Under the pieces are notes generated by a model. The model was given only the letters and a program-made list of their open reading frames with translations. It was not told the origin of the DNA and made no database searches. A program made the position numbers and the translations under genes. This document shows positions 16,601-36,519 of a stretch of DNA of 36,519 nucleotides, one piece after another (the first letter of the stretch is position 1; each line of letters begins with the position of its first letter). The DNA comes from a virus: the IMG/VR virus record IMGVR_UViG_3300003937_000097, positions 1 to 36,519 of that record; one strand, 5' to 3'.

Positions 16601-18419
16601 GGATACCTTTAAACTTACTAGAAATGGATATGATTTCCGCCCTGGTGATGTGTTTAAAGTTGTTGGTCTTGTAACGGCAAAAGACTTTGCACAACCATCT
16701 TCAGAGTTCCAAGTTGAAGTTACATCAACTTTCAATGATTTCTTTGCTGCGTGGTCTTTCGGTGAACTCGATTATATCGATAATATTGCTGGATTCCAAG
16801 ATGGAAGTAGAAAAAGATTCCCATTATTCTATGTTGGTGAACTATTGAGTTTTGCACTTGATACTCAATCCCCATTATCATCTGCAATCGATTTAGATGC
16901 TGTACTTGTAATTTTTGTAAATGGTGTGATACAAACTCCAGGAGCAGCATATACTTTTGAAGGTGGTGGTTCTTCATTCATATTTACAGAAGCTCCTCAA
17001 CCTCAAGATAAAGTAGACATATTCTTCTATATCGGTCAAGATAGCATTGATGTTACTAGAATTGAAGTTAAAGAAACAATCAAAAAAGGTGATGATCTAT
17101 TCGTAAATAGACATCCATTCTTCTCAAGCGCAGTTGATAACTTATATCAGCAACAAATACGCAGTAGAACGATTTCAGACATTATTGGTTCTGACATTGT
17201 TGAAACTGATATTTACACTGGACCTGGAATTAATGATATTGATTACAGACCATTTGATTGGACCAAGCAAAAGGTAGATAAGTTTATCAAAGGTGATCTT
17301 ATTTCAAAATCTAGAGATATTTTAGAAGCAAGAATCTTCCCAACGGCAAAAATTATTGGTGATGTTACTCCAACCTCATCGGAAATCTTTGTTGATAATA
17401 TTCAGTTCTTTAATTATGAGGAAGAGGTTTATACTCATCCATCATTTAGCAATCTCTTCGATTCTCTAGATGCTGTTATAATTGATGCAAATGATCCTAT
17501 TGGAGCAGGATTTACTGCTAATGTCTCTATAGCAGGAACTATTTCTGGAATCAACACTACAAACGTAGGTTCTGGATATAGTGGAACATCATTGGATATT
17601 AAATTCTCTGCACCAAAAGTTATTGGTGTTGGTATAGGAACTACGGCAACTGCCACAGCAACTATTTCTAATGGATCGATATCTTCAGTAAATATTACAA
17701 ATCCTGGTTTAGGATATACCAATACAAATCCACCACATTTAATTATTGAAACTCCTAGTTTAATTAAGGAGGAAATTAAGGAATCTACAAATATCCAAGG
17801 TTTCTCTGGCATTATAACTGGTATTTCTACAACAACTGGAACTGGTGGACATCCACTTGCCCTCAAGATTAACTTTAGAGCACTTAAAGATTACACTACA
17901 GGTGGAGAAGCACAACTTGCTTCTGATGCACTTGATTTGGTTGCTGGTTATCCAATTATGGTTTATGGAACTAAAGTTGGAACTGGCGCAACTTCAGTAT
18001 TCGATAGTAATGATGCTGTTGTTGCCATTGGAACCACATTCCTAGATAATGTATATGTTGTTAGTCAAAAAAGTTTTGAAAATGGACCTGATGCTGAGTT
18101 AATTCTGAACGTTCATAGTGATAGTCCTATTACAGGAATTTCAACTTCTGGAGGTTTTGAGGATAATCAAGCAGGTACAGCAACAACTGCACTTGGATAC
18201 CTATCTTGGGGTAGGATATATAATTATGCTGAACGCAGTGGTGGTGTTTCTATTGGTGTAACTGGTTTAACAGTTGATGCTGGATTATCCACATTCCCTG
18301 TTCTTCAAAGAAGAGGAAATGCTGGATTTGATAAGAGTGGTGCAATCAGATCTACTAAGTCTATTGTTAATTCTGCAAATATTACTGCAGATAATCAACT
18401 CCCATTCTACGGTGCTTAG
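4692..18419 (+). CDS. giant modular baseplate/virion structural protein in gene 7 position (4575 aa)
   Basis: A single uninterrupted frame of 4,575 codons follows AGAGAGGA nine bases upstream of the ATG. It lies between gp6 and gp8, where T4 has gene 7 (1,032 aa wedge protein) and where cyanophages carry very large VrlC-like proteins. Residues 1-60 ('EKRVQLNKIIESQLPEFLVS') and about 175-240 ('LYQSKGIEESIKILFKVLYG') are helical and probably anchor to the wedge. The rest is beta-rich and built from recurring modules. Type A is 'DTTIVV..GFP..IDNEIITYT' (residues about 74-134, 323-372 and 3120-3215). Type B is GxGY, with its Tyr at 756, 954, 1090, 1134, 1175, 1440, 3644, 4296 and 4342. Type C is 'NHGF..GD', with seven or more copies. 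A YHYH-family-like motif 'GWAYDGNPIYGPYGY' lies at 1259-1273, although the YHYH tetrad itself is absent. Two 'YPR.TDPA' domains flank a helical block at about 3690-3813. The gp7 role is inferred from position; a peripheral adhesin role is possible. Confidence 0.85.
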   Translation: MSNFEKRVQLNKIIESQLPEFLVSDFPKAVDFFKQYYISQEKQGGNIDLVDNLDRYLRVDNLVPEVVVGKTALSSSISASDTTIVVTSTKGFPDDYGLLKIDNEIITYTSKTSTTFTGCVRGFTGITGYDSGISNLINTVNKQNVVFSETSAEEHSNNSTVTNLSALFLQEFYKKLKRTFTPGLEEYEFVSDLDVGNFIKHARNLYQSKGIEESIKILFKVLYGVEASVIDLEERLIKPSAANYIRRETIVVERISGDPFKLEGQTIFKSTDSGTSASVSDVEIFTRNNETFYRLGLFIGYNDRDLIEGTFTIPGSSRVLENVSVGSSVINVDSTIGFGQTGTVVVGSNAIDYTAKSINQFYGCINVGAAITTGTRIRSNEYVYGYEDNDLTKRVDLRITGVLADFNPLGKLSLMEVGEEIKVRNVGEVITNPTTDRTYKQIFANSWIYNTSSSYNVDTINGSIFTLLSDIDKSSLKRGDTVDIVNGSNVVGSGATIVSVSEPTKEVTLGNIVGFAASTGVNYSLRRRVEKSESVGVALSLGNDVYIADTLNVYTDENDEFGYITSNSLPSYTIYDDIIEKNADSLGERDNVFNNYTVVVFPSDVDFLDGDEIVYTAETPIAGLVSNASYFVKKFVDSTGTVINNKIYLYSSKALLKGNEYIKLDYTVSSGGGSGSLIGTHTFTLRRHEDRVLSPNQILRKFSLNTSLSDVKSENRKIGSIGLLVDGTQISSPESRDKIYYGPISEFEVLNGGKGYDVINPPKIIISKPIGLGNTNALVEPVIEGIVNQILVDPQDFDIESIEGISLIGGNGSGCQLEPVMGSRFRELSFDSRALSLGGGVDIDNETITFSDFHNLFDGQHLIYNQNGHNAISIGIANDPTQSIEGTLVSGDEYVTKFVNTTSIKLFKTDADALAGINTIGFSTATTASGIHKFRTLSRKNLREVKVIQSGSGYTYRKLRVSSSGISTEYNTIYFKNHGFNTDDIVDYSYEGTSIGGLTDTNRYSIQKVDADNFRVIDVGIGASITTDLVRSKVVDITTVGVGTHIFQYPPISVDINVSYGSTLGGTFVFTPIVTGEIIDTYLYEQGTGYGSNTLNLHKKPLISLPQGKDAQLSPIILNGRIDAVQIRNRGAGYKSLPIIETEGTGTGAVLRPILGGINGEQIIEVKVINGGIGYDQNLTDIIIKPRGSGAKFDLRVRDLTVNDAERFASYTKKRQEKIYSNLSPNETSDLLVYSMYGYSSDLAIKFNDTASNHSPIIGWAYDGNPIYGPYGYSTIDDVQSGVRLLESGYIINSNSIIDRPLLSNYPEGFFIEDYQFTDVGDLDKHNGRFCKTTEFPNGVYAYFASVNVDGSSLEPQYPYFIGNSFRSKFIKENEVLDQTFDFNNSDLVRNTFPYKVNDKDANYDFINESYESFAQIARIESVSQGDIDEVIVVDGGSGYQIGDVVNFDETGTKGRGLRAQVSELKGIEVDSVSTSLETYENVVFEWDTDRVVSVYSRDGYLDFNNNDTVLITGLSTAVTYLADSHHIGFTTETVGLAKTMTSFTGATSGVGVFEDILVSNVPVVSAGNTITIFSSSGTESVRVLNNFNNGVLRVQRFGEAPNYTTGVAHTFGSELNVISDRVRLPVKTKKFTSKRDDLVYFNPLEAVGVGLTDGSAISKIITVGITTSEISIPTRTIYLPNHPFTTGQKITLSKGAGNPSSFTVGMNNSNVNTFFIPDLSTKETDLYVINKGRNYIGLVSETVGAVGVGTTSEGLFFYNVGNAADRSDYLIKSNKDQVTGNLSRITTLVSCAETHGLSRNDVIKLNVLPNTIVGVGTTAALRLSLDLDEKKILVNSTDVESSAINLSNNTFTLTSHGYSTGDKIYYSGDATGIVSGDYFIIKDSLNTFRLSETKYESNPASQKEINITATGSGPHTISLINPRLDVVRNSDIQFILQDPSLFGYNLKIYREKEFVNEFVSVANNSEFNIISAGSTIGLGTLTNPTLTLKHSNNIPSRLYYTLEKSGYISTADTNVNDYSEINYIDSEYNGSHKVFGITGAGNTTTFKISPVKIPSVLSYNKSQCDKLEYSTKSASALSGSIGKVRIISKGFNFERLPQFTDVTSETGINANIFAESTSIGSPKKVRFKDIGYDYPSDKTLRPQTFVPPVINLDNLDTIKDFNIISQGSRYLRDPDVILINDTTKEIVDKDSLLAKAPNGAIAEIEILAPLFGLASETHKLVFVNNSNGVGISTMTGDGISGVATCTLVTPILGFVQPQFEVGDEIFIEGIDLDSTGTGYNSSDYNYRFFKVKSYNNISPATLEFEIVDDAGVGLSTNVGLAKTVQSGYATIINKKYYPEVTVIQDRSKFFANEQLYVNTTGASFVEEDIFVSLIRDDYIKVQGNYDLNIGDKIKGVISGTIADVTGVSRNKGYFNIDYSSKQELGWRDDTGKISVDHQVIPNNDYYQNLSYSVKSPITWEEQSSPVNSIIHPAGLKNFADVGVTSTGSSTVGLAGTTTSIAILDVVNERRVDTINNFDNVVDYDIRQNALSNFDQSKFLKLQNIKLEDYIECRTNRVLIHDDISNNFSSRGFKDIFIELDEIDFSDNYVGYVIQVIDADTKDVQLSELVYQSTTLNTFLFEKYTNFTKEKLGDFSTDLDSAGRKTLIFTPTDPYERDHDIKILKRSYLYTALAGGGTQTGSTTFGSIDLVGSFVSGIGSVGTASSIKTLVDFPVNDFNGMYAKVEIVDRFTSDHNYIEAIVDFDGTDTYLSEYYFDTQSLSYSSSQTGILSAIYDANAGIVSLTAQNIGISSLVGLYDVRSTIVGFGTTTTGIGTYRYLVNNQPAGTEKSVKIESTVGFGTTAVRVGTFDLGSVSSSNSVVRVSAGETSAIHQVSILSNTLQTTVVPGPFAAVNNVTGLGTFGGEIDGSRYYLNFYPDTPYDVEVQGYNEVFYTEQDYDNTPLPNTYGPTIGEVLYDAYDGINGLRANRTQFKLSHEGDPIYVKSFVPTDTAQVNYVTGVITLRNHFFNTGEELIYRPSSTFAGIGSTAMGIGSTEGYTGIVTDKLPDRVYPIALTPDTFQLSTRREYAKAGIFVTFTDAGLGNIHELEITKKLSKTVIALDGIVQQPIAFTPINHNLDFNNGGITAGISTFNLTGISSVQPRDVLKIDDEYMKVVEVGLSTNVNGALLGPINGIIAAGTAATHPTVAVQRGSLGTRAEAHSDGAEARIYRGALNIVGNNVHFIDPPKGNTRARRNESNLPYVKAEFSGRTFLRSNYEKNMLFDDISDSFTGVGKTYTLTTSGLNTTGVGIGSGILFINGVFQTPSTLNNSGNNYNFEQDNISGISSVVFTGITSVDGSYIQSESDINQNQLPRGGQIVSLGSTPGLGYAPLVGAKFIAETNSSGAITGVVGVNTFINPVSITTAHYNNISGILEIETSDSHYLKGADRVRLVGLEFTCSSVYSGVTTSIFPDHNRSLDIANIIDSTKLNVQVGPSTIIHNYLKDGQIYQHFDLNIGSGYRHPIGIAVTDLAFVHKFVRAITNSVTASSGGPFTPTKANYDSKTGVLRLTIPNHGLSVSDTITIADDGLIFTCDEDQHFTEQPYPRSTDPASGQNLTITNVTTNIITVNVGSGGGSGTGAAIEAVVGAGGTLALNVTSTGSGYKNPRIVIPEPNYENMEVTGVSRLGIGATSLTGRNVLMNLTIAQTTEKALGDRFFDAANLIEDNAAFIADIAYGRMLAQFPSYSPPAGTNGQDCKDDIVDVLESISYNLKYGGNDYTVDAANLYITGAHVSGEEQETAYAFDQARDLAVQAMRNEAVTIGGYTTKTQVFDTSITYDTVKYTPSNVAYTASSGITTVTIPNHQFSNGDQIKIRTNSLIFKCDKDNFATEHRYPRPTDPAADTFLSITNVTTNTFRVNVGASPAGEQYNHIFTFSELASIERKLTASTTPAQCANVQSAIHTLVGIVTTAVVSSSIPPRTVAPGAQYSVDTFKLTRNGYDFRPGDVFKVVGLVTAKDFAQPSSEFQVEVTSTFNDFFAAWSFGELDYIDNIAGFQDGSRKRFPLFYVGELLSFALDTQSPLSSAIDLDAVLVIFVNGVIQTPGAAYTFEGGGSSFIFTEAPQPQDKVDIFFYIGQDSIDVTRIEVKETIKKGDDLFVNRHPFFSSAVDNLYQQQIRSRTISDIIGSDIVETDIYTGPGINDIDYRPFDWTKQKVDKFIKGDLISKSRDILEARIFPTAKIIGDVTPTSSEIFVDNIQFFNYEEEVYTHPSFSNLFDSLDAVIIDANDPIGAGFTANVSIAGTISGINTTNVGSGYSGTSLDIKFSAPKVIGVGIGTTATATATISNGSISSVNITNPGLGYTNTNPPHLIIETPSLIKEEIKESTNIQGFSGIITGISTTTGTGGHPLALKINFRALKDYTTGGEAQLASDALDLVAGYPIMVYGTKVGTGATSVFDSNDAVVAIGTTFLDNVYVVSQKSFENGPDAELILNVHSDSPITGISTSGGFEDNQAGTATTALGYLSWGRIYNYAERSGGVSIGVTGLTVDAGLSTFPVLQRRGNAGFDKSGAIRSTKSIVNSANITADNQLPFYGA
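7585..7755 (+). repeat. example of NHG-GD module (type C) in the giant gene
   Basis: This is one of at least seven related segments. Here 'YFKNHGFNTDDIVDY' is followed by a 'GGLTDTNRYSIQKVD' strand pair and 'NFRVID'. Others start near 7220 (degenerate), 9715 ('LPNHPFTTGQKITL'), 10220 ('TSHGYSTGDKIYYS'), 13680 ('LRNHFFNTGEELIYR'), 15340 ('IPNHGLSVSDTITI') and 16205 ('IPNHQFSNGDQIKI'). The constant part is a hydrophobic strand, [N/S]H, an aromatic or Leu, and a GD/SD turn before another strand. Confidence 0.7.
7940..8275 (+). repeat. tandem GxGY modules (type B), three in a row
   Basis: Three consecutive units place the GxGY Tyr at residues 1090, 1134 and 1175 of the giant protein, spacings of 44 and 41. 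Each unit has a strand, then '[EN]xG[TAI]GY', then a Pro/Ile strand, then a Gly-rich loop such as 'EGTGTGA' or 'RGSGAKF'. Equivalent units occur in gp8, in the DUF4815 giant and in gp14. Confidence 0.75.
13103..13219 (+). repeat. 18-base direct repeat inside the giant gene
   Basis: TGTTGGATTTGGAACAAC occurs at 13103-13120 and again at 13202-13219, in frame and exactly 33 codons apart. Both copies encode VGFGTT. This short identical repeat within a diverged protein repeat could be a recent duplication or a site for recombinational length change. Confidence 0.65.
15268..16425 (+). repeat. duplicated 'YPRxTDPA' domain flanking a helical block
   Basis: Copy 1 (about 15268-15535) and copy 2 (about 16150-16425) encode parallel strings: 'IPNHGL..LIFTCDED', 'YPRSTDPA', 'ITNVTTNIITVNVG' and 'IPNHQF..LIFKCDKD', 'YPRPTDPA', 'ITNVTTNTFRVNVG'. 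They are clearly paralogous and diverged. Between them, residues about 3690-3813 form a helical block with 'IADIAYGRMLAQFPSY' and 'DDIVDVLESISYNLKYGG', a segment I recall in other cyanophage structural proteins. Confidence 0.75.
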
Positions 18420-18461: not shown

Positions 18462-20015
18462 ATGTCAGCTATTGTTACTGATCAATTTAGAATTCTGAAT
18501 GCCAGTAATTTTGTGGACTCCATTGAGTCCAATTCTTACTACATTACATTAGGATTAGCAAATCCAGTTGCTGCTGGATATGGTAGAACTAGTGATTGGA
18601 ATACCAATCCACCTTCACCGGTAGATAATCTTTCGTATGCTAGTCATATTGGAGATACTGTACTTTTTGGTAAGAAGATTACTTCTGCCAATGCACGAAG
18701 GATTGTTAGAAGAATTGATTGGAATTCGGGAACAAAATATGAAGTTTATAGAAATGACTATAGCGTCACAAATCCTGCACCCATAACAAATGCTGCTCGA
18801 CTATATGATGCAAATTACTATGTAATGAATGAAGATTATAGAGTTTATCTTTGTGTTGAGAATGGATCTAGTGGAACTAATCCCAAAGGAAATGTTTCTC
18901 AGGATCAACCAACATTCACTGATTTAGAACCATCTAGGGCAGGGGATAGTGGTGATGGATATATCTGGAAATATCTATTCACAATCAGTCCTAGTGACAT
19001 TATTAAATTTGATTCTACAGACTATATTACAGTTCCTAATAGTTGGTCAACTTCAACTGATTCTCAAATAAGAGCAATTAGAGAATCTGGAGATTCTAGT
19101 ATTAATGAAAACCAAATCAAAACGGTTTATATTGAAGATGCTGGATCAAATTATGCTAATGGTCTTGGTCAAGAGATGAACATCATTGGTGATGGCACTG
19201 GTGGTAAGGTTAGAGTTGATGTTGAAGGTGGTAAAATTACAAATACTGTAGTTACTTCTGGTGGAAAAGATTATAGTTATGCATTAGTTGATCTTGGATC
19301 TATAAATTCAAATACTAGTGGAACTTCTGCAAAGTTAGTTCCAATTATCCCACCATCTAAAGGTCATGGTTTTGATATCTATAAAGAACTTGGAACTGAT
19401 AAAGTTTTAGTCTACGCTAGATTTGATGATTCTACAAAAGATTTTCCAGTTGATACAAGTTTTGCTCAAGTGTCAATTGTGAAAGATCCAACTGCTATTG
19501 GAACTGCAAATACATTTACTGATAGTAATTTTACTGGATTATCTGCGTTTAAACTTGTATCAATTACAGGAACACCTAAAGTTGGTGAAAAAATTGAACA
19601 ATCCGTTCAAAACGGAACTTCAAAAGCATTTGGTTATGTTGCTTCGTTTGATACCGAAACTAAAGTTTTGAAGTATTTTACGGATAGATCTTTATTTTAT
19701 AATCAAACAACAAAAGATCAACAAGATTATACAGGCATTTCTACTAATGGTAGACCATATGCTTTTGAATCTTCATCAAATTTAATTAGTGGTCAAACTT
19801 CATCATTCACAGGATCAGTTGATACTGGATTCTCAGGAATTGCTACAAATCCAACAGGAATTAAGCAAATAAATCTGGGTTCTAGTTTCACAGCAGGTAT
19901 GTCAGTTCCTGAAATAAATAAAGGATCAGGGGAAGTTATCTACCTGGACAACAGAGCTAGCATTGCTAGAAATGCACGTCAAAAAGAAGACATCAAAGTT
20001 ATACTGGAATTCTAA
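18462..20015 (+). CDS. gp8: gp8-like baseplate wedge subunit
   Basis: The 517-residue product shows the gp8 signature: N-terminal 'TDQFRILNASNFVDSI', 'SYYITLGL', the 'PVDNLSYASHIGDTVLFGKK' region, the strand pattern 'VEVYRND'-like ('TKYEVYRNDYSV'), 'GDGYIWKYLFTISPSDIIKF', and a C-terminus 'NARQKEDIKVILEF'. T4 gp8 has 334 residues and forms a dimer in each wedge, joining gp6, gp7 and gp10. About 180 extra residues are present here. Part of the extra length is a pair of GxGY-like units with the Tyr at 231 and 271 ('DAGSNYANG', 'SGGKDYSYA'). It has its own late promoter, and its stop is 3 bases before the next gene. Confidence 0.93.
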   Translation: MSAIVTDQFRILNASNFVDSIESNSYYITLGLANPVAAGYGRTSDWNTNPPSPVDNLSYASHIGDTVLFGKKITSANARRIVRRIDWNSGTKYEVYRNDYSVTNPAPITNAARLYDANYYVMNEDYRVYLCVENGSSGTNPKGNVSQDQPTFTDLEPSRAGDSGDGYIWKYLFTISPSDIIKFDSTDYITVPNSWSTSTDSQIRAIRESGDSSINENQIKTVYIEDAGSNYANGLGQEMNIIGDGTGGKVRVDVEGGKITNTVVTSGGKDYSYALVDLGSINSNTSGTSAKLVPIIPPSKGHGFDIYKELGTDKVLVYARFDDSTKDFPVDTSFAQVSIVKDPTAIGTANTFTDSNFTGLSAFKLVSITGTPKVGEKIEQSVQNGTSKAFGYVASFDTETKVLKYFTDRSLFYNQTTKDQQDYTGISTNGRPYAFESSSNLISGQTSSFTGSVDTGFSGIATNPTGIKQINLGSSFTAGMSVPEINKGSGEVIYLDNRASIARNARQKEDIKVILEF

Positions 20016-20018
20016 ACA

Positions 20019-23000
20019 ATGTCACAGAAGACAAACTTAAATGTAAGCCCTTATTATGATGATTTTGATAAGGCTAATAATTTTTACAGAGTTCTTTTTA
20101 AACCTGGATTTCCCGTCCAGGCAAGAGAACTAACGGGTCTTCAGTCTATCTTACAAAATCAGGTAGAATCCTTTGGCAGTCATATGGTCAAAGAAGGTTC
20201 TATGGTGATTCCTGGTGGAGTCACTTGTGATGACCAATTTACAACTGTTAAGGTAAACCCAGACCATCTTGGCATTGATATTACAGTATATTTGTCATCG
20301 ATTGTTGCTTTAAACAATGGTAGAGGTGCCAAAGTAAAGGGAGAAACCTCCGGAGTAATTGGCACAATTAAAGGATTTCTACTACCTCCAGACGAAGGCG
20401 TAGAAGAAATAACATTATTCGTTAAATATCGCGATGGGGCAGATGATGGCGAAACGGTAGAGTTTTCTGATGGAGAAGTCTTAATTCTTGAAGAAAATGT
20501 TAGTTATGGTAATACAACTCTCAATATTGGAGATACCGTACTAACAACCCTCTCGGTAAATTCAACTGCTACAGGTTTTGCGGTTGGTGTTGCTGAAGGA
20601 GTCTACTTTATTAGAGGAACATTTGTTGATGTTTCGACAACTCAAATTGTCCTTGATCCATACACTAATGATGTTTCATTTAGAGTTGGTTTTGATATAT
20701 TAGAAGAAATTGTTAATGCAAATGAAGATGATAGTCTAAACGATAACGCAAAAGGTTTTACAAACTATGCAGCACCAGGTGCTGATAGATTAAAAATTAG
20801 TGTAAAACTTTCAAAGAAAGCACTTACCGATACCGAAGATACAAGTTTTGTAGAACTTGTTAGAGTTGATAACGGTGTAATTAAAAAGTTACAGAATAAG
20901 TCTAACTACAATCTTATTAGAGATTACTTTGCAAAAAGAACTTTTGACGAATCTGGAAATTATGCAGTTGAACCCTTCATAGTTGATTGTGCAAACACTT
21001 TAAACAATGAAATTGGTAATGGAGGTCTCTTCAGAGAAGATGATCTTACTGAAGATGGCAACAAACCATCAAATAACTTGATGGCATATAAAATATCCGA
21101 AGGAACTGCATACGTTAAGGGATATGATATTGATTTAGTTGGTTCTACCGTAAAAGATATTGATAAACCAAGAGATGTCAAAAAAGTTCAAGGAAGTAGA
21201 GTTCCATTTGGAATGGGAAGTCTGATTCGTGTTAATAATGTACACGGAATTCCATATATTAAAATTGGTGGAACTGCTGCTGGTGGTGATACCAGTGCCA
21301 ATGTCATTGGTTTGTACTCCGATAGAAGAAATGGCGAAGATAATAGTGGAGGTATCGATGGAACTGGTCAGGGCATTAAAATTGGAGAAGCAAGAGTATA
21401 TTGGTTTGGATTAACAGATGATCGCTATAAAAATGCAGGAACTGAATGGGACTTGTACTTATATGATACTCAAACATATACAAACTTAACTCTAGCAAAT
21501 ACTTTTTCAACAGGTGATGTTCCTAATGGATCACTTGTAAGAGGTATGTCTAGTGGTGCAACTGGGTTCATTGCCGATAGAAGTAGTAATACATTAAGTT
21601 TATCCCAAACTTCTGGAACTTTCCTTGAAGGTGAGCAAGTAATTATTAATGATATGCAGAAATTTAAATCTGCAATTAATACTACAGGTATTCAAGCATT
21701 TACAACTGAAGATATTAAGTCTGTATTCCAAGACTCTGACAGTCTTGATACTAATCTTAAGAAAAACTTCTTAGCGGACACAGTTCTTTATCCAAAACAA
21801 CTTGCAAATTTTGCAGTTACAGACCAACTGACAATTTCTGGTGGAAATCTTGGGAAAGTTCAAGGTAGATTCTTTAATGCCGTCAATGGAATAAAAGTTA
21901 ATGGTATTATTCGTTATTTCAAAGATGGTGAAATTGATCCAAGTTTTGCAAGGATTAGTGGAGTAAGAGATCATGAAATTGATCTAGCACCAACTACAAA
22001 TATTACAGATGTTTGTATAGGAGCGGTATCAAATCAAACATCGAACTTTGAGTTAATGGTACCAAGAATTCTGAATGTTGGTCAGAATGGTCTTTATAGT
22101 ATATTGCCAGAGCAAAATATATCATCAGTTGATTTTGCATCATCAGAACTTACAGTTAGTTATCAAATAACTGAGCAATCTACTGATGCAAATGGATCAT
22201 TAGAATTTACATCAGCAGATGTTATTGGAGCAAACGCAGGCATCAGCAGTGTATTCTTTGAAACTTTTGATGCTGAAAGATATTCTGTTGTATATAATGA
22301 TGGATCACCTGCACCATTAGATTCTGGACAAGTAATTTTAGATGAGAATGCTGGTAAAGTTACCATAACTAATCTTGAAGCATCTCAATCTAGTAATGTA
22401 ACTGTTCTTGCTACAATGAAAAAGCGAGGCATTACACATAAATCAAAGGACTATATTAGATCCACACAGGTGAATGTTGATAGATCATTTGATGGTTCAA
22501 GATTCTCTGTAGGTTTAACAACTAGTACATATTATGGAACTAGAGTTCAAGATGATGAAATATCTCTAAATTTCCCAGATGTTGCAAATGTTATTGCAGT
22601 TTATGAATCAACAAATTCTGCAGCACCAATTTTAGATAGATTGACATTTGCAACAGGTCTAGCATTAGACCAAAATGCAATTGTCGGTGAGAAAATTGTA
22701 GGTGAAGATAGTAGAGCAATTGGTCAAGTTGTTTCTGCAACAGCAAATACAATTGATTATGTTATTTTAAATACGGAAGATTATCAAGTTGGAGAAGTTG
22801 TTAAGTTTAAAGAATCTTCTATTTCTGCTGTCATTCAACAGGTAAGAGAAGGTAGTTATGTTAATAGAACTCCTAACTACAGATTGGATACTGGAAATCG
22901 CCACCAATTCTGCGATTATTCTAGAATTGTAAGGAGAAGAGGAACTACAGTACCTTCCCGTAAACTATTAATTATTTTTAACCACTACAGAGTTGCATCA

Positions 23001-26000
23001 GGTAACTCCGGTGATGTATTTACAGTGAACTCTTACACTGAAGATAGGTATTCTAGTGATATTCCAGTTCTTCCAAATGGTCTTCGTACAACTGATATTA
23101 TTGATTTTAGACCAAGAGTTAAACCCTGGACTGATGTTAGTGGTTATGAAACTAAATCACCATTCGATTTTGCAAGTAGAAGATATGAATCTGATTTCCA
23201 ATATGTTGTAAAACCAGATGAATCATCCTTCTTGGGATATGAATTCTATCTACCAAGAATTGATTTAGTTACAATTAATCGCATTGGTGAAGTTGAAGTT
23301 ATTCGTGGAGAATCTGCACAAAATCCACAACCACCAATTCTTGGTGATGATGCAATGGAAATTGCACAAATTAAACTTCCAGCATATCTCTACAATCCTA
23401 TTAGTGAACCAGAGATTCTTCTAAGAGATAATAGAAGATTTACGATGCGTGATATTGGAAAACTTGAAGATAGAATTGAAAATATTGAAGATATTACCAG
23501 TCTTACAATGTTGGAATTGAATGCAAAGACAACTGCAGTTACTGATGCAAATGGTCTTGATAGATTCAAATCTGGATTTATTGTAAGTGATTTTAGAGAT
23601 AAATCTCTAATGGATCCTAGGTATTCTACAATTGATATTTCAAAAGAAGGATCTCTCGCAATAGCACCTGTTGATCTATGGTCAATGAATGCACAATTGG
23701 CATTAGATCCAGGAATTGATCCATCAACTACTGATATGACTCAGAATCTTAAGTTGATGGATCCAAATATTCAAAAAACTGGCGATCTTCTAACCCTAAA
23801 ATATGAAGAAGTTGAATATTTAAATCAACCGCACGCAACTAATGTTGAAAATGTAAACCCATTTAATGTTATTGTATTTGTTGGTGGTGTTGTTCTTGAT
23901 CCCGCCTCAGATAACTGGGTAAGAACTATCTATATTAATGATCATAGAACTGAATCTACTGGTGCTAAATGGAAACAGCAGGCAAAAACTACTGTTGATG
24001 TTGATAAGAAAACTGTAATTGAAAAATATAAAAAAGGTGGTGGTAGAGGTGAAAGACTTAAAAAAGCAGTTACTACAACTAAGGTTACAACAACAACTAA
24101 GTTTAAACCTAAACTTAGAGGACCTGCAAGAGAATTTGATTATGTTGAAGATGTAAAAGTTTCTGGTGAAGCAGATCCTTGGATGCGTTCAAGAAATGTT
24201 TACTTTGCTGCGAACGGTTTAAGACCATATACAAAGCATTACAAGTATCTTGATGCACAACAAGTTGATATTGTTCCCAAACTTTGTGAAATTGAAATGA
24301 ATTCAGGTACATTTACCGTATTTGAAAATGCTGATATTTTCGATATTAGGGGTAGAAAAGTTGGATTCATAAGAGTTCAAAGACCTAATCATAAGTTTGG
24401 TGATACTACAAGACCTGATATTGGTGCTGGTTTAGGATCTCCTGCGGTTCTTGTTGAAGAATATCAAGTAGACCCTTATGACAGAGATAGACCTGGACCT
24501 GGAACTGCATATTCTCCAACATCAAAACTGATTAATTTTGGTGTAAGAGTTCTTTCTATTAGTGAAAAATTTTATGGATATGTAAGAAAAGGATTTAAAG
24601 TTGTTGGTAGAACATCTGGTGCAGTTGCGACAATAACAAGAGCCGAATTAGTCTCCGATAATTGGGGAGATATAATTGGAACGTTCTTCTTTAGAAATCC
24701 AAATTCTAATCCAGCACCAGCAATAAGAGTTAAGAGTGGAACAAAAACTGTAAAAGTTACTGCAGTTCCTCCTGGTGTAACTCCATTACCAGGATCTACT
24801 GTATTTGCATCGGAAGCAATTGGAACTTATAGTGGTTCCGGAAGTATTTTAACCCAAGAAACTTCTAGAGTTTCTGTTAGAAATCCACCCAAACCACGTA
24901 GAAAGAAAACTGAAATTGACATTAAGAAAACTGTTAAGGCAGTTCATAGAGACCCCCTTGCACAATCATTTACGGTTACAGAACCAGAAGGTATTTTCTT
25001 AACTTCTGTTGATCTATTCTTTGCAACTAAGGATCCTGGTGCAAAGATCTTTGTTGAACTTAGAACAGTTGAACTTGGAACACCAACAGGTCTTCTAGTT
25101 CAAGATTATGCTCAGGTTTCACTTAATCCTGCAGATATTAATGTTAATGAAGCAAATCCATTTGAACCAGTAGCAACAAATGTTAAATTTGAATCACCAA
25201 TTTATCTTGAAGGTAATGATACAGAATATGCTATTGTCATTCTCTCTCCAGCATCTGATGGATATGAAATGTGGACGGCAACAATGGGCAAAAAGACTGT
25301 TAGAACAACAAGTCTTCCTGATGTTCAAAATGTTGTTGTTACTAAACAGTATCTTGGTGGATCTCTGTTCAAATCTCAGAATGGAACAATCTGGACTCCT
25401 TCACAGTTCCAAGATCTAACATTCAGACTTAATAAAGCAAAATTTGTTAAATCTGGCACCGTTACTTGGTATAATGGAGATGTGTTACCTAAGGGTGATA
25501 ATTCTTCCATTTTGGAAGATAATCCAATTCAAGGATTACCAAGAAAGTTAAAACTGCCAGTAACTGGTGTTACTGCAAATGAACAATCTTTACTTTTAAC
25601 AGGTGTAAAAGTTGGACAAGGTGGAGTAAGCGTTACTCCTGCAACAGAAGGCACGACTGGATTTATTGAAGCAACTGGCGGACCTATTGCTGCAACGGGA
25701 ACTGGTAACGTTGCTATTGGAAATAGTGGTTCTGGGTATAAGGCAGGTTCTTATAATAGTGTTCCACTATTCCCAATCTCTGGTCAAGGATCTGGAGCAC
25801 AAGCAACTATTACAGTTGATGCTTCTGGTGGTGTAACTGGAGTAAACATTACTGCTGTTGGAACTGGATATCGTAGTGGAGAAGTTGTTGGTGTTACATC
25901 TGCAACTGGTGGTGGAGGTAGTGGTGCCAGAGTAACAATCAAGACTCATAATACCACTTTTGATACTCTGTATATGACTAATGTTTTGGGTGAAAACTAT

Positions 26001-27467
26001 ACTCAGGGTGAAGCATTAGTTTATTATACGGAACCAGATAATCATCTTTCTAGAACTGCATTAACTGCTGGTGCTAATGTTGGAACTAATGGATCTTCAA
26101 TTTACGATGAAAAGTATGTTGGAAACATTATGAGCATTAAGCAGCATAATCACGCACATCATGGTGGAAACAATAAAATTGAAATTGTTGATATTAAACC
26201 AGATAGTACTAAGACGGAACTTAGTGCAGCATTTGGATTAACTGACACTACAGTTTCTATTGCAAATACTTCATTATTTGGAGTTGCTGAAGGAATTTCT
26301 ACAAGTAGAGGATATGCAATCATAAACAGTGAAGTAGTTTCTTACAGTAATATTTCTGCAGGAAATGCTGGAGCAGGAACTCTTAGTATTGATGGAAGAG
26401 CAGTAAATGGAACTGTAAAAATTGCACATGAAACTGGAGCATCTATTCAACCATATGAAGTCAATGGTGTTTCTTTGATGAGAATTAACAAAACTCATAA
26501 TATTCCATCAACATTTTATAAAAATGAAAGTTCGGATCTTGATAGTTACTTCATAGAAGTTGACAGGTCAACACCATCAAGTAGGGTTTCTGGAGATGCT
26601 TTGTTGAATTTTGCATCTGAAAAAGGATTTGGTGGCACTGAAGTTGGTATTTCTCAAAACTACCAGTTCAGCACTATTGTTTCAGAATTTAATATTATTA
26701 CCCCTGGAAAGGGAACTTCAGCAAGAAGTTTCATTAGAACAATATCTGGAACAAGTGCAGGCGGAAGAGAAGTTTCATTCCAAGATCAAGGATATGAACC
26801 ACTTCCTCTCAACAAACCACTCAAGTTTAATACTCCTAGAATGGTTGCTTCCAGAGCAAATGAACTTGAAAGACTTACAACGTTACCACGTAATAAGTCA
26901 CTAACAATGAGAGTTGAGTTTGCAAGTGAAAATGAAAATGTCTCCCCCGTAATGGATGCACAAAATGCAACATTCATTCTTGGAAGAAATAAATCTAATG
27001 CTCCAGTCGGTGATTACATTACAGATTCTAGATCTAATTCCATAGATCAGGATCCACATGGTGCGGTATTTGTAACTAAGAGTATTTCTCTTGCACAACC
27101 AGCAACAAGTTTGAAAGTGTACATTGCTGCTAATGTACAAGAAGGTGCAGATTTTAGAGTCTTATATCAATTATATAAAGCAGATTCTACGGAAATTCCT
27201 CAGAAATTTGTACCTTTTCCAGGATATGATAATTTGAGAGATACTGATGGAGATGGTTTCGGTGATATGGTAATTAATTCAGACTTAAATAGTGGTAGAG
27301 CGGATGCATTTGTTTCTCCTAATGGAACCGAAGGGTTCTCGGAGTATCAATTTACTGCAAACAATCTTGATCAATTTACTGCCTTTGCATTAAAGGTTGT
27401 AATGTCATCCACAAATGAATCAACACCAGTTTCACTTACAGACTTTAGAGTAATAGCACTTGCATAA
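20019..27467 (+). CDS. DUF4815-type giant virion structural protein (2482 aa)
   Basis: The N-terminus 'YYDDFDKANNFYRVLFKPGF', followed by 'QARELTGLQSILQNQVESFG', is characteristic of the DUF4815 phage structural family. Position after gp8 corresponds to T4 genes 9/10, so it probably builds the baseplate periphery and carries fibres; this is inference from synteny. A Lys/Thr-rich basic stretch ('TTTKVTTTTKFKPKLRG') lies near residues 1345-1365 and a second basic stretch precedes 'DPLAQSFTV' near 1645. Two GxGY units have the Tyr at 1907 and 1951. A type A module ('DTTVSIANTSLFG..INSEVVSYS') spans about 2068-2150. Near the C-terminus, residues 2408-2416 (DTDGDGFGD) have the DxDxDGxxD spacing of thrombospondin-3/dockerin Ca2+ loops. 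The protein contains no signal peptide. Its function in fibre attachment remains inferred. Confidence 0.88.
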   Translation: MSQKTNLNVSPYYDDFDKANNFYRVLFKPGFPVQARELTGLQSILQNQVESFGSHMVKEGSMVIPGGVTCDDQFTTVKVNPDHLGIDITVYLSSIVALNNGRGAKVKGETSGVIGTIKGFLLPPDEGVEEITLFVKYRDGADDGETVEFSDGEVLILEENVSYGNTTLNIGDTVLTTLSVNSTATGFAVGVAEGVYFIRGTFVDVSTTQIVLDPYTNDVSFRVGFDILEEIVNANEDDSLNDNAKGFTNYAAPGADRLKISVKLSKKALTDTEDTSFVELVRVDNGVIKKLQNKSNYNLIRDYFAKRTFDESGNYAVEPFIVDCANTLNNEIGNGGLFREDDLTEDGNKPSNNLMAYKISEGTAYVKGYDIDLVGSTVKDIDKPRDVKKVQGSRVPFGMGSLIRVNNVHGIPYIKIGGTAAGGDTSANVIGLYSDRRNGEDNSGGIDGTGQGIKIGEARVYWFGLTDDRYKNAGTEWDLYLYDTQTYTNLTLANTFSTGDVPNGSLVRGMSSGATGFIADRSSNTLSLSQTSGTFLEGEQVIINDMQKFKSAINTTGIQAFTTEDIKSVFQDSDSLDTNLKKNFLADTVLYPKQLANFAVTDQLTISGGNLGKVQGRFFNAVNGIKVNGIIRYFKDGEIDPSFARISGVRDHEIDLAPTTNITDVCIGAVSNQTSNFELMVPRILNVGQNGLYSILPEQNISSVDFASSELTVSYQITEQSTDANGSLEFTSADVIGANAGISSVFFETFDAERYSVVYNDGSPAPLDSGQVILDENAGKVTITNLEASQSSNVTVLATMKKRGITHKSKDYIRSTQVNVDRSFDGSRFSVGLTTSTYYGTRVQDDEISLNFPDVANVIAVYESTNSAAPILDRLTFATGLALDQNAIVGEKIVGEDSRAIGQVVSATANTIDYVILNTEDYQVGEVVKFKESSISAVIQQVREGSYVNRTPNYRLDTGNRHQFCDYSRIVRRRGTTVPSRKLLIIFNHYRVASGNSGDVFTVNSYTEDRYSSDIPVLPNGLRTTDIIDFRPRVKPWTDVSGYETKSPFDFASRRYESDFQYVVKPDESSFLGYEFYLPRIDLVTINRIGEVEVIRGESAQNPQPPILGDDAMEIAQIKLPAYLYNPISEPEILLRDNRRFTMRDIGKLEDRIENIEDITSLTMLELNAKTTAVTDANGLDRFKSGFIVSDFRDKSLMDPRYSTIDISKEGSLAIAPVDLWSMNAQLALDPGIDPSTTDMTQNLKLMDPNIQKTGDLLTLKYEEVEYLNQPHATNVENVNPFNVIVFVGGVVLDPASDNWVRTIYINDHRTESTGAKWKQQAKTTVDVDKKTVIEKYKKGGGRGERLKKAVTTTKVTTTTKFKPKLRGPAREFDYVEDVKVSGEADPWMRSRNVYFAANGLRPYTKHYKYLDAQQVDIVPKLCEIEMNSGTFTVFENADIFDIRGRKVGFIRVQRPNHKFGDTTRPDIGAGLGSPAVLVEEYQVDPYDRDRPGPGTAYSPTSKLINFGVRVLSISEKFYGYVRKGFKVVGRTSGAVATITRAELVSDNWGDIIGTFFFRNPNSNPAPAIRVKSGTKTVKVTAVPPGVTPLPGSTVFASEAIGTYSGSGSILTQETSRVSVRNPPKPRRKKTEIDIKKTVKAVHRDPLAQSFTVTEPEGIFLTSVDLFFATKDPGAKIFVELRTVELGTPTGLLVQDYAQVSLNPADINVNEANPFEPVATNVKFESPIYLEGNDTEYAIVILSPASDGYEMWTATMGKKTVRTTSLPDVQNVVVTKQYLGGSLFKSQNGTIWTPSQFQDLTFRLNKAKFVKSGTVTWYNGDVLPKGDNSSILEDNPIQGLPRKLKLPVTGVTANEQSLLLTGVKVGQGGVSVTPATEGTTGFIEATGGPIAATGTGNVAIGNSGSGYKAGSYNSVPLFPISGQGSGAQATITVDASGGVTGVNITAVGTGYRSGEVVGVTSATGGGGSGARVTIKTHNTTFDTLYMTNVLGENYTQGEALVYYTEPDNHLSRTALTAGANVGTNGSSIYDEKYVGNIMSIKQHNHAHHGGNNKIEIVDIKPDSTKTELSAAFGLTDTTVSIANTSLFGVAEGISTSRGYAIINSEVVSYSNISAGNAGAGTLSIDGRAVNGTVKIAHETGASIQPYEVNGVSLMRINKTHNIPSTFYKNESSDLDSYFIEVDRSTPSSRVSGDALLNFASEKGFGGTEVGISQNYQFSTIVSEFNIITPGKGTSARSFIRTISGTSAGGREVSFQDQGYEPLPLNKPLKFNTPRMVASRANELERLTTLPRNKSLTMRVEFASENENVSPVMDAQNATFILGRNKSNAPVGDYITDSRSNSIDQDPHGAVFVTKSISLAQPATSLKVYIAANVQEGADFRVLYQLYKADSTEIPQKFVPFPGYDNLRDTDGDGFGDMVINSDLNSGRADAFVSPNGTEGFSEYQFTANNLDQFTAFALKVVMSSTNESTPVSLTDFRVIALA

Positions 27468-33081: not shown

Positions 33082-33513
33082 ATGACTAATAGTTATGATT
33101 CTATTGATGAAGCACTCAATATTGAAAGTAGTATTGTTGAGTCAAAACCAGTAAAACCTGTTCCACTAAAAGTGGAAAAGAATGATATTAAAAAAGATTA
33201 TGAGTATACAAGAGCAAACTTATATTCTTTGATTGAAAAGGGTCAAGAAGCAATAAATGGTATTATGGAACTTGCAGGTGAAAGTGCAAGTCCTAGAGCA
33301 TATGAAGTTGCGGGTCAATTAATCAAATCTGTTGCAGATACTACAGATAAATTAGCAGATCTTCAGAAAAAGTTAAAAGATCTGGAAGAAGATAATGGTA
33401 GTAAGGGACCAAATAATGTAACAAATAACGCTTTATTTGTTGGGTCTACATCAGAACTTTCAAAGTTACTCAAACAAGGTTTTCTAAATAATAATGAATC
33501 TGATAGTAAGTGA
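33082..33513 (+). CDS. gp16: gp16-like small terminase subunit
   Basis: The 143 residues (T4 gp16: 164) show the T4-type small terminase pattern: a helical core 'YEYTRANLYSLIEKGQEAIN', 'IMELAGESASPRAYEVAGQL', then a coiled-coil 'DTTDKLADLQKKLKDLEED', and the C-terminal signature 'NNALFVGSTSELSKLLKQG'. Small terminase oligomers recognise concatemeric DNA and stimulate the gp17 ATPase/nuclease. The N-terminal 30 residues are less conserved. Its TGA overlaps the ATG of the next gene (TGATG), so the inserted gene is translationally coupled to the terminase. Confidence 0.93.
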   Translation: MTNSYDSIDEALNIESSIVESKPVKPVPLKVEKNDIKKDYEYTRANLYSLIEKGQEAINGIMELAGESASPRAYEVAGQLIKSVADTTDKLADLQKKLKDLEEDNGSKGPNNVTNNALFVGSTSELSKLLKQGFLNNNESDSK

Positions 33514-35405
33514 TGTCTAAGAAGTCCTGCAAAAAAGGATATTACTATTGCAACACTGATGAAAAGTGTAAAAAAATACCTCGTGGTTATATTCTTGGTA
33601 TAGGTGGATATCTTCGTAAGGAAAAAGGTGATGATTCTGATGAAGAAACAAAAAATAATGGTAATGGAGGAAATGGAAATGGAAATCACTCAAATGGCAA
33701 TGGCAACGGGGATGGCTCCTCTTCTGATGGAGGTGGTGAAGGCGGCGGAGGTGGCGTCTCTGAATCGTGGAGTGCAAAGTACAAAAAATCCATCGATTGC
33801 AATAATCCAAAAGGATTCTCTCAACGAGCACATTGTGGGAGTAGAGAAAAAGTAAGCGAATCGAAGAGTGGTGATTCTTCTTTGCGTGACTGGTTTAGTA
33901 AGAGTAAGTCTAGTGATGGCAAACCTGGTTGGGTCCAATTGGGTGGGAAATATGCTGGAAAACCTTGTGCAAAGCAACCAGGACAAAAGACCAAACCTAA
34001 GTGTGGGTCCAGCAAAATGGCTGCAAATTTAAATGATAAGGAAGAGAAAAAGGCATTTAATAGAAAGCAACGTCAAGATCCAAATCCAAATAGAAAAGGA
34101 AAGGCAATCAACGTGAAAACAGAATCTTATTCAAACTGGAGAGAAGAATCAAAATCTATTGATGAAGGTGCTGCAAATGTCATTCGTGCAGGTTTAGCAA
34201 TAGGTACAGGACTTGCTGGATTGAAACTTATGGACAAAGCAAGAGAAGTTGGTGAGAAGGTTAAATCTAGAAATCAAAAAATGCAAGATGCCATCAACAA
34301 GGCAAGAGGTGTTAAAGAGGAAGTTATTGCCGAACGCGATGCCTGGGGTACAGGTCCCAGAGATATGATTAAGATGGGTGGTAAGGGAGGTTTGAAGAGT
34401 CCACAGGATCTTGAAAGAGAAAGACTGCAGAGATTAAAGAATTTGAAACCAGGAGTTAAATTAGATAAAGCACATTATGAACCAGAAGGTGAAATGGTTG
34501 ATGAAGGTAAGAAAGATGCTTGCTATCATAAAGTCAAGTCTCGTTATTCTGTCTGGCCAAGTGCTTATGCATCAGGTGCTTTAGTTAAGTGCCGTAAAAA
34601 AGGTGCTAAGAACTGGGGTAACAAAACCAAAAAAGAAAGTTATGAGTTCTCCAATTGGAGAGATGATTTTCAGGCACTTGAATATGAATCTGTAGATATT
34701 ATCAAAACAGAACCACTACAACCAACTGAAGGAATTGGAAGTAAGATGCTTGATGAAAAGTGTTGGAAAGGATATAAGAAAAAGGGTATGAAGACAATGT
34801 TTGGAAAAAGATATCCAAATTGTGTCAAGGAAGAAGGGATTGAGCAAATTCAAGAAGTTTCTGCTGAAACGAAATCTGATATTAAAAGGAGGTTTGCTGA
34901 TAGAAAATCAAATAAAGAATTTAAAGCTGGTGGTGGATATGCTGCAATGGACCAAAAAGGTCAAACTGCGGATCAGGTAAGATCTCAGGGGCAGCGTAAT
35001 TTTGAACCTAGAAAGTTCCAAGCACCTAATGTTCATAACACTAAAACAAAAGATAAAATTACTTATGGTGGCAGTCCTTCAATGACTTTCTCCACGAAAA
35101 GTGAATCCATAAATCATTATGATTGGAGATCAGATTTTGACATGCAAGAAGATTGGCAGAAATCAAATCGCAAAGATGGTGTTGATGGTATGAGTCAAAA
35201 ATCTGTTAATGCATATAAGCGTGAGAATCCAGGTTCTAAACTGAAGACTGCTGTAACAGGCAATCCAAAGAAAGGAAGCAAAGATGCAAAGCGTCGTTCT
35301 TCTTATTGCAGTCGATCTAAAGGTCAGATGAAGATGCACAACATCGATTGCTCAAAAACCCCAGATAAGAAAATTTGTAAAGCACGTAGAAGGTGGAAGT
35401 GCTGA
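33513..35405 (+). CDS. Lys/Cys-rich modular protein between gp16 and gp17 (630 aa)
   Basis: The chosen ATG overlaps the gp16 stop; a GTG one codon earlier is possible but less likely. The protein is highly basic and assembled from short Cys-containing modules: residues 1-40 ('CKKGYYYCNTDEKCKK'; C6, C13, C19), an Asn/Gly linker (about 49-82), 'DCNNPKGFSQRAHCG' (about 94-108), 'GKYAGKPCAKQPGQ..PKC' (about 145-166), 'DACYHKVKSRYSVWPSAYAS' (about 336-365), 'EKCWKGYKKKGMKTMFGKRY' (about 413-435) and 'YCSRSKGQMKMHNIDC..C' at the C-terminus. Three similar 'ES..NWR' peptides follow modules, at residues 206-212, 377-386 and 536-542. I recall similar single modules in marine phage proteins but no function. 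The location between terminase subunits and the basic charge suggest a head-associated or DNA-binding role; this is inference. No T4 counterpart lies here. Confidence 0.8.
   Translation: MSKKSCKKGYYYCNTDEKCKKIPRGYILGIGGYLRKEKGDDSDEETKNNGNGGNGNGNHSNGNGNGDGSSSDGGGEGGGGGVSESWSAKYKKSIDCNNPKGFSQRAHCGSREKVSESKSGDSSLRDWFSKSKSSDGKPGWVQLGGKYAGKPCAKQPGQKTKPKCGSSKMAANLNDKEEKKAFNRKQRQDPNPNRKGKAINVKTESYSNWREESKSIDEGAANVIRAGLAIGTGLAGLKLMDKAREVGEKVKSRNQKMQDAINKARGVKEEVIAERDAWGTGPRDMIKMGGKGGLKSPQDLERERLQRLKNLKPGVKLDKAHYEPEGEMVDEGKKDACYHKVKSRYSVWPSAYASGALVKCRKKGAKNWGNKTKKESYEFSNWRDDFQALEYESVDIIKTEPLQPTEGIGSKMLDEKCWKGYKKKGMKTMFGKRYPNCVKEEGIEQIQEVSAETKSDIKRRFADRKSNKEFKAGGGYAAMDQKGQTADQVRSQGQRNFEPRKFQAPNVHNTKTKDKITYGGSPSMTFSTKSESINHYDWRSDFDMQEDWQKSNRKDGVDGMSQKSVNAYKRENPGSKLKTAVTGNPKKGSKDAKRRSSYCSRSKGQMKMHNIDCSKTPDKKICKARRRWKC
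33650..33770 (+). repeat. Asn/Gly-coding low-complexity tract
   Basis: Reiterated GGNAAT/GGAAAT units, e.g. GGAAATGGAAATGGAAAT, encode an Asn-Gly-rich linker at residues about 49-82 that ends in a run of Gly codons. The unit length is a multiple of 3, so copy changes would keep the frame and alter only linker length. Confidence 0.75.
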
Positions 35406-35701
35406 TGAAAACTTTTAAACAGTTTATCGAACAAACAGTTCCAAAAGGATTTCCACAAGGAGTCAATATTAATATTGTACCCGGTTCTGGTGATATTGAT
35501 AGAGGCAGACGTGCTTTCGGTTTGGGTAGAAGGAACACGACTCTCGATTTTCATAGAGAAAGGGATAGGGCAAGGGAGAGAGCAGGTGTACCTGCTCAGA
35601 ACACCAATCGTGGAGCTCCACAATTCAATTACCCATCTGTAACTCCGAGTACACAAAAAATTACTCCTTTAAGGAATCCTAAAGCACCAATGGATGTATA
35701 G
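35405..35701 (+). CDS. small basic protein with capsid-targeting-like N-terminus (98 aa)
   Basis: The start ATG overlaps the previous TGA (TGATG); a GTG at 35393 would only add four residues inside the upstream gene. The first ten residues, MKTFKQFIEQ, closely resemble the T4 internal-protein capsid-targeting sequence MKTYQEFIAE. The rest is Arg-rich and low in predicted structure: 'GDIDRGRRAFGLGRRNT', 'HRERDRARERAGV' and a Pro/Thr-rich tail 'YPSVTPSTQKITPLRNPKA'. Such a basic, probably disordered protein beside terminase genes would suit an internal head protein that binds DNA; this is inference from the N-terminus and charge. The strict T4 protease consensus (I/L-x-E) is not exact here, since E9 follows F7-I8. 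Its neighbour has nearly the same first ten residues. Confidence 0.75.
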   Translation: MKTFKQFIEQTVPKGFPQGVNINIVPGSGDIDRGRRAFGLGRRNTTLDFHRERDRARERAGVPAQNTNRGAPQFNYPSVTPSTQKITPLRNPKAPMDV

Positions 35702-35705
35702 ATGT

Positions 35706-35870
35706 ATGAAAACTTTTAAGCAATTTTTAGAACAAAAAGTAGACAGTGGAGCATATCGTTATCTACCTAGTAATGCATCTTGGGTAAATAATTATATTAT
35801 CAATGATGCTAAAAATAAAAAGACAAAAAACGATTCGTTTTTTTATAAATTTGATGTGAAGTCAAAATGA
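35706..35870 (+). CDS. small protein with capsid-targeting-like N-terminus (54 aa)
   Basis: ATG at 35706 follows the previous stop by 4 bases and the frame ends with TGA at 35868-35870. The 54 residues start MKTFKQFLEQ, identical at nine of ten positions to the preceding gene's start. They continue with unrelated sequence: 'KVDSGAYRYLPSNASWVNNY', 'IINDAKNKKTKNDSFFYKFD', ending 'VKSK'. The shared leader on otherwise different bodies matches a targeting or processing signal rather than gene duplication. The body is basic and polar; function is otherwise unknown. It is the last gene before gp17. Confidence 0.72.
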   Translation: MKTFKQFLEQKVDSGAYRYLPSNASWVNNYIINDAKNKKTKNDSFFYKFDVKSK

Positions 35871-35910: not shown

Positions 35911-36519
35911 ATGAATGAACAGTACCTTGGTAATCCATTATTAAAAAAAGCAAATACACCCATCGAATTTACTCAAGATCAAGTTCTTGAGTTTATGCGG
36001 TGTAAAGAAGATCCCGTCTATTTTGCAAAAAACTATGTAAAAATTGTTTCTCTTGATGAAGGATTGACGCAGTTTGATCCTTATGACTTTCAAGAGAAAT
36101 TAATTCACAATTTTAATAATAACAGGTTTAATATCTGTAAGATGCCACGTCAGACTGGTAAGTCTACCACTGTGGTATCTTATCTTCTACATTATGCTGT
36201 TTTTAATGATAGTGTTAACATTGGCATCTTAGCAAACAAGGCGGCAACTGCTAGAGAACTTCTCAGTAGGTTACAAACTGCTTACGAAAACTTGCCTAAA
36301 TGGATGCAGCAGGGTATCATATCATGGAACAAAGGATCTTTAGAGTTAGAAAATGGCAGTAAGATATTGGCAGCTTCTACGTCTGCAAGTGCTGTCCGAG
36401 GCATGTCGTTCAATATCCTATTCCTCGACGAATTTGCATTCGTTCCAAACCATGTTGCAGACTCGTTCTTTGCATCTGTTTATCCTACTATTACTTCTGG
36501 TAAAAACACCAAAGTAATT
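35911..36519 (+). CDS. gp17: gp17-like large terminase, partial (5' end only)
   Basis: The first 203 codons of the large terminase are present; the gene runs off the window (T4 gp17: 610 residues). An upstream adenine-contact segment 'DPYDFQEKLI' (Q61) precedes the Walker A loop 'MPRQTGKST' (78-86, K84), and Walker B 'NILFLDEF' has D173 and E174 as the catalytic pair, all in the order and spacing of the gp17 ATPase domain. gp17 docks on the portal, translocates DNA with ATP and cuts the concatemer with its C-terminal nuclease, which lies outside this window. No intron or frameshift is visible in this part. Confidence 0.96.
   Translation, partial: MNEQYLGNPLLKKANTPIEFTQDQVLEFMRCKEDPVYFAKNYVKIVSLDEGLTQFDPYDFQEKLIHNFNNNRFNICKMPRQTGKSTTVVSYLLHYAVFNDSVNIGILANKAATARELLSRLQTAYENLPKWMQQGIISWNKGSLELENGSKILAASTSASAVRGMSFNILFLDEFAFVPNHVADSFFASVYPTITSGKNTKVI

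Follow-up and report, generated by a model that had tools for sequence, protein, structure and literature searches.

Two adjacent small genes at the right end of the virus fragment analysed here in its entirety (36,519 bases; the window) encode proteins that begin MKTFKQFIEQ and MKTFKQFLEQ. This start is very probably a capsid-targeting leader, which would carry the two products, here called orfA and orfB, into the phage head. That leaders of this type work like the capsid-targeting sequence (CTS) of T4 is strongly supported; that these two proteins use theirs as a T4-type CTS is probable. The evidence comprises the recurrence of the leader, its position and codon usage, cross-retrieval of the T4 internal proteins, a protease-site signature and overlap with published virion lists.

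The window derives from a T4-like cyanophage. At its right end, the DNA is ∼68–73% identical to that of the best-matching cyanophages, among them P-SSM2, S-SKS1 and S-SRM01, and the genes there run gp15, gp16, a 631-aa modular protein, orfA, orfB and gp17. The pair thus lies between the terminase subunits, as an earlier note on this DNA had it:

33082–33513, + strand: gp16, small terminase subunit, at the left edge of the locus (phrog_445, E 1.8e-56)
33510–35405, + strand: 631-aa modular protein (phrog_727, E 8.8e-104; C-terminal DUF6321, PF19846, E 4.7e-10, residues 558–629)
35405–35701, + strand: orfA, a basic protein of 98 aa, leader at the N-terminus; predicted to be an internal head protein (from reading frame, leader and pI)
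35405–35434, + strand: orfA leader MKTFKQFIEQ, EQ class, capsid-targeting-like (matrix score 28.6)
35706–35870, + strand: orfB, a basic protein of 54 aa, leader at the N-terminus; predicted to be an internal head protein (from reading frame, leader and pI)
35706–35735, + strand: orfB leader MKTFKQFLEQ, EQ class, capsid-targeting-like (matrix score 28.9)
35911–36519, + strand: gp17, terminase large subunit, truncated by the contig end (phrog_5989, E 1.6e-59)

The 631-aa protein has modules that are fused to the leader in other phages, and its C-terminus is homologous to S-CREM2 ORF137 (ending ...CKARRRWNC), a virion protein by mass spectrometry (MS). The nearest relative, the near-identical contig G006, has counterparts of orfA and orfB at an identical 301-base spacing. 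Its gene order continues from gp17 through gp18, gp19, gp20, gp21, gp22 and gp23, with the gp21 protease gene (18969–19619) and the gp22 scaffold gene (19666–20769) on the coding strand; in our fragment these fall outside the window, which ends in gp17. Elsewhere in the window, the baseplate region has two very large reading frames, at 4692–18419 (4575 aa) and 20019–27467 (2482 aa), whose positions match those of the gp7-type baseplate wedge and VrlC-like proteins of other cyanophages.

The start codon of orfA, ATG 35405, overlaps the upstream gene's stop codon as TGATG, and the 98-aa product begins MKTFKQFIEQTVPKG.... For orfB the start codon is ATG 35706 and the 54-aa product begins MKTFKQFLEQKVDSG...; an alternative in-frame ATG at 35694 would add MYRC. 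The reading frames, the basic bodies (computed pI 11.4 for orfA and 9.7 for orfB) and the dissimilarity of those bodies all agree with the earlier description, the 100 bases that follow the two leaders being identical at 28 positions, the background level. Homologues of orfA occur on five leader-pattern contigs (L008, L011, L020, L023 and L030) and of orfB on three (L005, L011 and L024). Homology to known proteins was rejected for lack of significant PHROG matches for either protein, of any Pfam match for orfA, and of more than chance-level tblastn matches of the two bodies against 50,697 phage records.

Two neighbouring genes with the same start could reflect a recent duplication or a gene-conversion patch with no function at the protein level. 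In hypervariable loci, short homologies are frequent sites of recombination, and the gp16–gp17 interval has been described as a cyanophage hot spot (PMC3037559). Against this, the leaders of orfA and orfB differ at 4 of 30 bases, with two silent changes in addition to ATC→TTA (I to L). Moreover, 87 other leader proteins use several codons at each position except Met1 while the residues stay fixed, which argues for selection on the peptide, as had been proposed, and the leader also occurs at distant loci on unrelated enzymes. Given the codon variation, a duplication or conversion patch is already disfavoured, and we regard it as highly improbable.

The leader recurs far beyond the window. A DNA pattern for MKTFK[Q/E]FxEQ matched 31 viral contigs. 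In nearly all of them the leader precedes small, basic, unrelated reading frames, and in several these come directly 3′ of a DUF6321-type gene, as in the window. Within 4 kb upstream of gp17 at 80 related loci, 27 leader reading frames lay on the coding strand against 0 on the reverse strand, which rules out a chance match. At least five unrelated bodies stand behind the leader at the gp16–gp17 locus. Among 87 distinct leader proteins other than cytidylyltransferases, position 4 is F or Y in 84 and position 7 is F in 85, and the median pI is 10.0. The strict DNA pattern gave no match in S-CREM2 or S-SM1 because the leaders there differ (MKNFSSFLTE and MKKFSAFLNE), so a protein matrix was needed.

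Such a matrix links the cyanophage leaders to T4. The likeness to MKTYQEFIAE that had first drawn attention to the two genes is accurate for IPII and IPIII, and IPI (MKTFKEF...) is closer still to the window leaders. In IPIII, residues 4 and 7 serve chiefly in targeting and residues 8 and 10 in processing, which an aspartate at residue 10 blocks without blocking targeting; the gp21 protease cleaves after L/I-x-E (PMC9026906). A matrix built from 23 cyanophage leaders only was run over 1441 frames in positions 1–150 kb of the 169-kb T4 genome, and its four best matches were gp61.1 (23.0), IPIII (16.1), IPII (16.1) and IPI (15.4), with the next frame at 7.2. The best T4 match, gene 61.1 (NC_000866, 18966–19130, minus strand), encodes a 54-aa hypothetical protein that starts MKTFKEFIKE and is, by its N-terminus, a new candidate for capsid targeting within T4, where it is not annotated as such.

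The end of the leader divides its bearers into classes. The leaders of 68 distinct cytidylyltransferases follow MK.[F/L]..F[L/I]xE↓A (arrow, expected cleavage position), with F7, L/I8 and E10 in 68 of 68, A11 in 67 of 68 and position 9 free; on sequence, this end is the T4 gp21-type signature L/I-x-E. Among the 87 other leader proteins, 35 have L/I/M/V-x-E, class frequencies being biased by the author-chosen patterns with which the searches were seeded. Two proteins, S-SM2_108 and one on contig L123, have a copy of the mature gp23 N-terminus right behind the leader, so that the junction falls precisely where the capsid protein is cleaved. L/I-x-E is missing as well from a third class, FQE[E/D/S]W....

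The window leaders belong to none of the forms with such a site. Position 10 is Q in both (ends IEQ and LEQ), and the full lengths of orfA and orfB contain no L/I-x-E; canonical cleavage by the prohead protease is therefore not predicted, and on this point the earlier note, which had expected the leader to be removed, is corrected. Nor does the class as a whole offer a site further on: L/I-x-E is missing from residues 8–40 in all 29 EQ-class proteins sampled, the window pair included, and downstream canonical cleavage was rejected on this ground. An altered protease specificity as the cause of Q10 is unsupported, as gp23 of the nearest relative retains its FLSE↓G cleavage site.

This absence in 29 of 29 proteins, unlike the processed class, could also mean that EQ-class leaders have lost targeting and play another role in the infected cell, e.g. 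in protein stability or DNA binding. We consider this very unlikely. Both orfA and orfB retain the targeting residues F4 and F7 and the hydrophobic residue 8, a T4 position-10 residue that blocks processing still permits targeting (PMC9026906), and the cassette site of the EQ-class genes is the one that in S-CREM2 holds ORF136, a virion protein. By T4 precedent, EQ-class products should instead be packaged and not canonically cleaved. With the targeting features present and the protease site absent, orfA and orfB are most aptly regarded as a variant form of T4-type internal protein.

Copies of the mature gp23 N-terminus (GGYTxxGxxVAGxD type) were also seen as a group on non-capsid proteins: S-SM2_108 (L036:20331), proteins on contigs L120, L123, L180 and L273, and S-CREM2 ORF160, the last a virion protein by MS. 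They are a possible second packaging signal by mimicry.

Published virion proteomes offer an independent test. From 26 leaders of phages other than S-CREM2 a matrix was built and run on the 219 S-CREM2 CDS, and the result was compared with the 52 proteins of the S-CREM2 virion MS list. The five top-scoring proteins (17.6 to 6.7; next 0.5) were all in that list: ORF154 (cytidylyltransferase), ORF6 (SAM hydrolase), ORF14 (kinase), ORF136 (from the gp16–gp17 locus) and ORF13. The hypergeometric p is 6.5e-4, and 5.4e-5 among non-structural proteins. A rank test on all S-CREM2 matrix scores against the same list was not significant (p 0.19), because most virion proteins are structural and lack the leader, so that only the high-scoring tail is informative; as a general predictor over all S-CREM2 proteins the matrix was rejected. 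ORF136 was represented by eight virion peptides, and its neighbour ORF137 was likewise detected.

Other phages add to this. The T4-GC190 cytidylyltransferase, to which a P-SSM2 orthologue links the family, was detected in purified S-SM1 virions (PMC3037559), and cytidylyltransferase/NMNAT relatives in virions of S-SZBM1 (PMC9146016), S-SCSM1 (PMC9602691) and S-CREM2 (PMC10665884). Of these four phages, we read the leader in the enzymes of S-SM1, S-SZBM1 and S-CREM2. The S-CRM01 kinase PKN8, which is reported to occur in the virions of that phage (cited in PMC10665884), starts MISFDQFLSE; in one virion kinase family the leaders are degenerate in some phages (S-N03 and MA01). Two leader proteins of the S-SZBM1 gp16–gp17 locus, gp191 and gp192, are absent from the 30-protein virion list; small proteins are easily missed, yet we count this as a real miss. 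The earlier note had held that the motif on clearly cytoplasmic enzymes would speak against a head signal. Enzymes do carry the leader, and the enzyme families with proteomics data are virion proteins, so that this objection was rejected.

Virion MS lists do not separate head from tail, and some leader proteins, such as P-SSM2_115 (MKSFKQFLEE), sit among tail genes; the leader might accordingly be an assembly signal for the neck, tail tube or baseplate rather than the head interior. Three observations make this improbable: the invariant L/I-x-E↓A at the leader end is expected only where the prohead protease is met, the matrix cross-retrieves the T4 internal head proteins, and the cargo consists of enzymes and small basic proteins, not tail components. 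Retrieval of the T4 proteins, the 68 cytidylyltransferase sites and the five S-CREM2 virion proteins together support the capsid-targeting reading that was originally put forward.

The cargo is broad. The cleavable-leader pattern matched at least 120 stretches, and 82 distinct reading frames were read among the matches listed. Pfam-supported cargo among those matches, beside the cytidylyltransferases, includes a GNAT acetyltransferase (L288), a DPBB lytic transglycosylase-type domain (L312), DUF5661, DUF6267 and DUF6321. ART-like, nuclease-like and HAD-like readings were made by eye or from weak PHROG matches, and Pfam searches of several cargo bodies left the ART-like, HAD-like and HNH-like readings unconfirmed. 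Whether one leader serves T4-type cyanophages as a general loading address for open-ended head cargo, with a cleavable class and non-cleavable classes (EQ and FQE) that keep the tag in the virion, we regard as evenly balanced. Its cargo would then comprise SAM hydrolase, kinase, NMNAT-like cytidylyltransferase and perhaps Cas9-like, acetyltransferase, ART-like and nuclease-like proteins.

Further sequence features were seen among these proteins. The motif [F/Y]S[N/D]WRx[D/E]LxE has 107 distinct occurrences, 68 of them with [LFIM]xE directly; it is found in the 631-aa protein of the window (33510–35405), in other phrog_727-type proteins, in proteins encoded after the cytidylyltransferase, and in S-CREM2 ORF155 and S-SZBM1_139, both virion-detected, and is possibly another signal for the head or for the protease. 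S-CREM2 ORF12 (L100, 7704–10313), a virion protein annotated as Cas9-like, has relatives in S-CRM01, S-N03, MA01 and S-B68. In this family the leader is delayed by ∼17–27 residues (..RFASFMAE↓A, ..GFSSFLKE↓A), and its gene cassette also holds a leader-bearing kinase and a small leader protein. A module GDGHGGWxD...VAxTxxGxLxF, which follows the leader in cytidylyltransferases (L047 and L044) and recurs in the S-CREM2 virion kinase ORF14 and in ORF12, is a shared cargo module.

We envisage the following course. While the prohead assembles, the short N-terminal leader, with F4 and F7 as its anchors, would bind the scaffold core, and this binding would draw orfA and orfB into the prohead as the T4 CTS does for the internal proteins. 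In most related cyanophage proteins, whose leaders end in L/I-x-E↓, a gp21-type prohead protease would be expected to remove the leader, and the basic or enzymatic cargo, now free, would be packed alongside the DNA; the EQ class of the window would be packaged with its leader in place. The bodies appear interchangeable, which would make the gp16–gp17 locus a cassette site for cargo. The likely purpose is that the cargo enters the host together with the DNA and helps the phage there against host functions; for orfA and orfB, the injection and anti-defence role that had been suggested is our inference from these parallels.

A literature search for cyanophage capsid-targeting leaders, in which subscription journals were thinly covered, found no description of one. 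The proteomics papers, in the parts accessible, place enzymes in cyanophage particles without a sequence rule for their entry. A ten-residue leader that picks out such proteins would make virion cargo predictable from sequence in abundant marine viruses, and it yields many candidate injected effectors tied to the well-studied T4 mechanism. Two predictions are concrete: gp61.1 in T4, and a division of the leaders into cleaved and uncleaved ones, which can be put to the test. On present evidence the leader probably marks what these viruses bring into the host cell.

Among known systems, the CTS of T4 IPI, IPII and IPIII is the closest: like the cyanophage leaders it is a ten-residue N-terminal stretch with aromatic residues at 4 and 7 and a hydrophobic residue at 8, it precedes small, basic, variable bodies, and the cyanophage matrix retrieves all three proteins. 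The window leaders differ in ending EQ without a gp21 site, although T4 IPI itself has no L/I-x-E at residue 10. The T4 genes lie in early-gene regions, whereas those of the window lie between gp16 and gp17, and cyanophage cargo with an IP-type leader, unlike the T4 internal proteins, includes large enzymes. For such enzymes there is a precedent in the T4 Alt ADP-ribosyltransferase, a head-carried, gp21-processed enzyme that is packaged and injected. Alt has a propeptide but a different leader (MELITELFDE), and the cyanophage enzymes use the IP-type one. The Dar antirestriction system of phage P1, with its capsid-localized DarB, likewise has a capsid-targeting sequence on proteins delivered with the DNA (PMC9024508); the phage and its components are unrelated, and we liken the two by description, not sequence. 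Nearest in host and habit are the cyanophage virion enzymes themselves (NMNAT/cytidylyltransferase, kinases, SAM hydrolase and Cas9-like proteins), found in virions by MS (PMC3037559, PMC9146016, PMC9602691, PMC10665884). The accessible parts of those papers report the proteins without naming a common N-terminal signal, and the leader described here is common to them.
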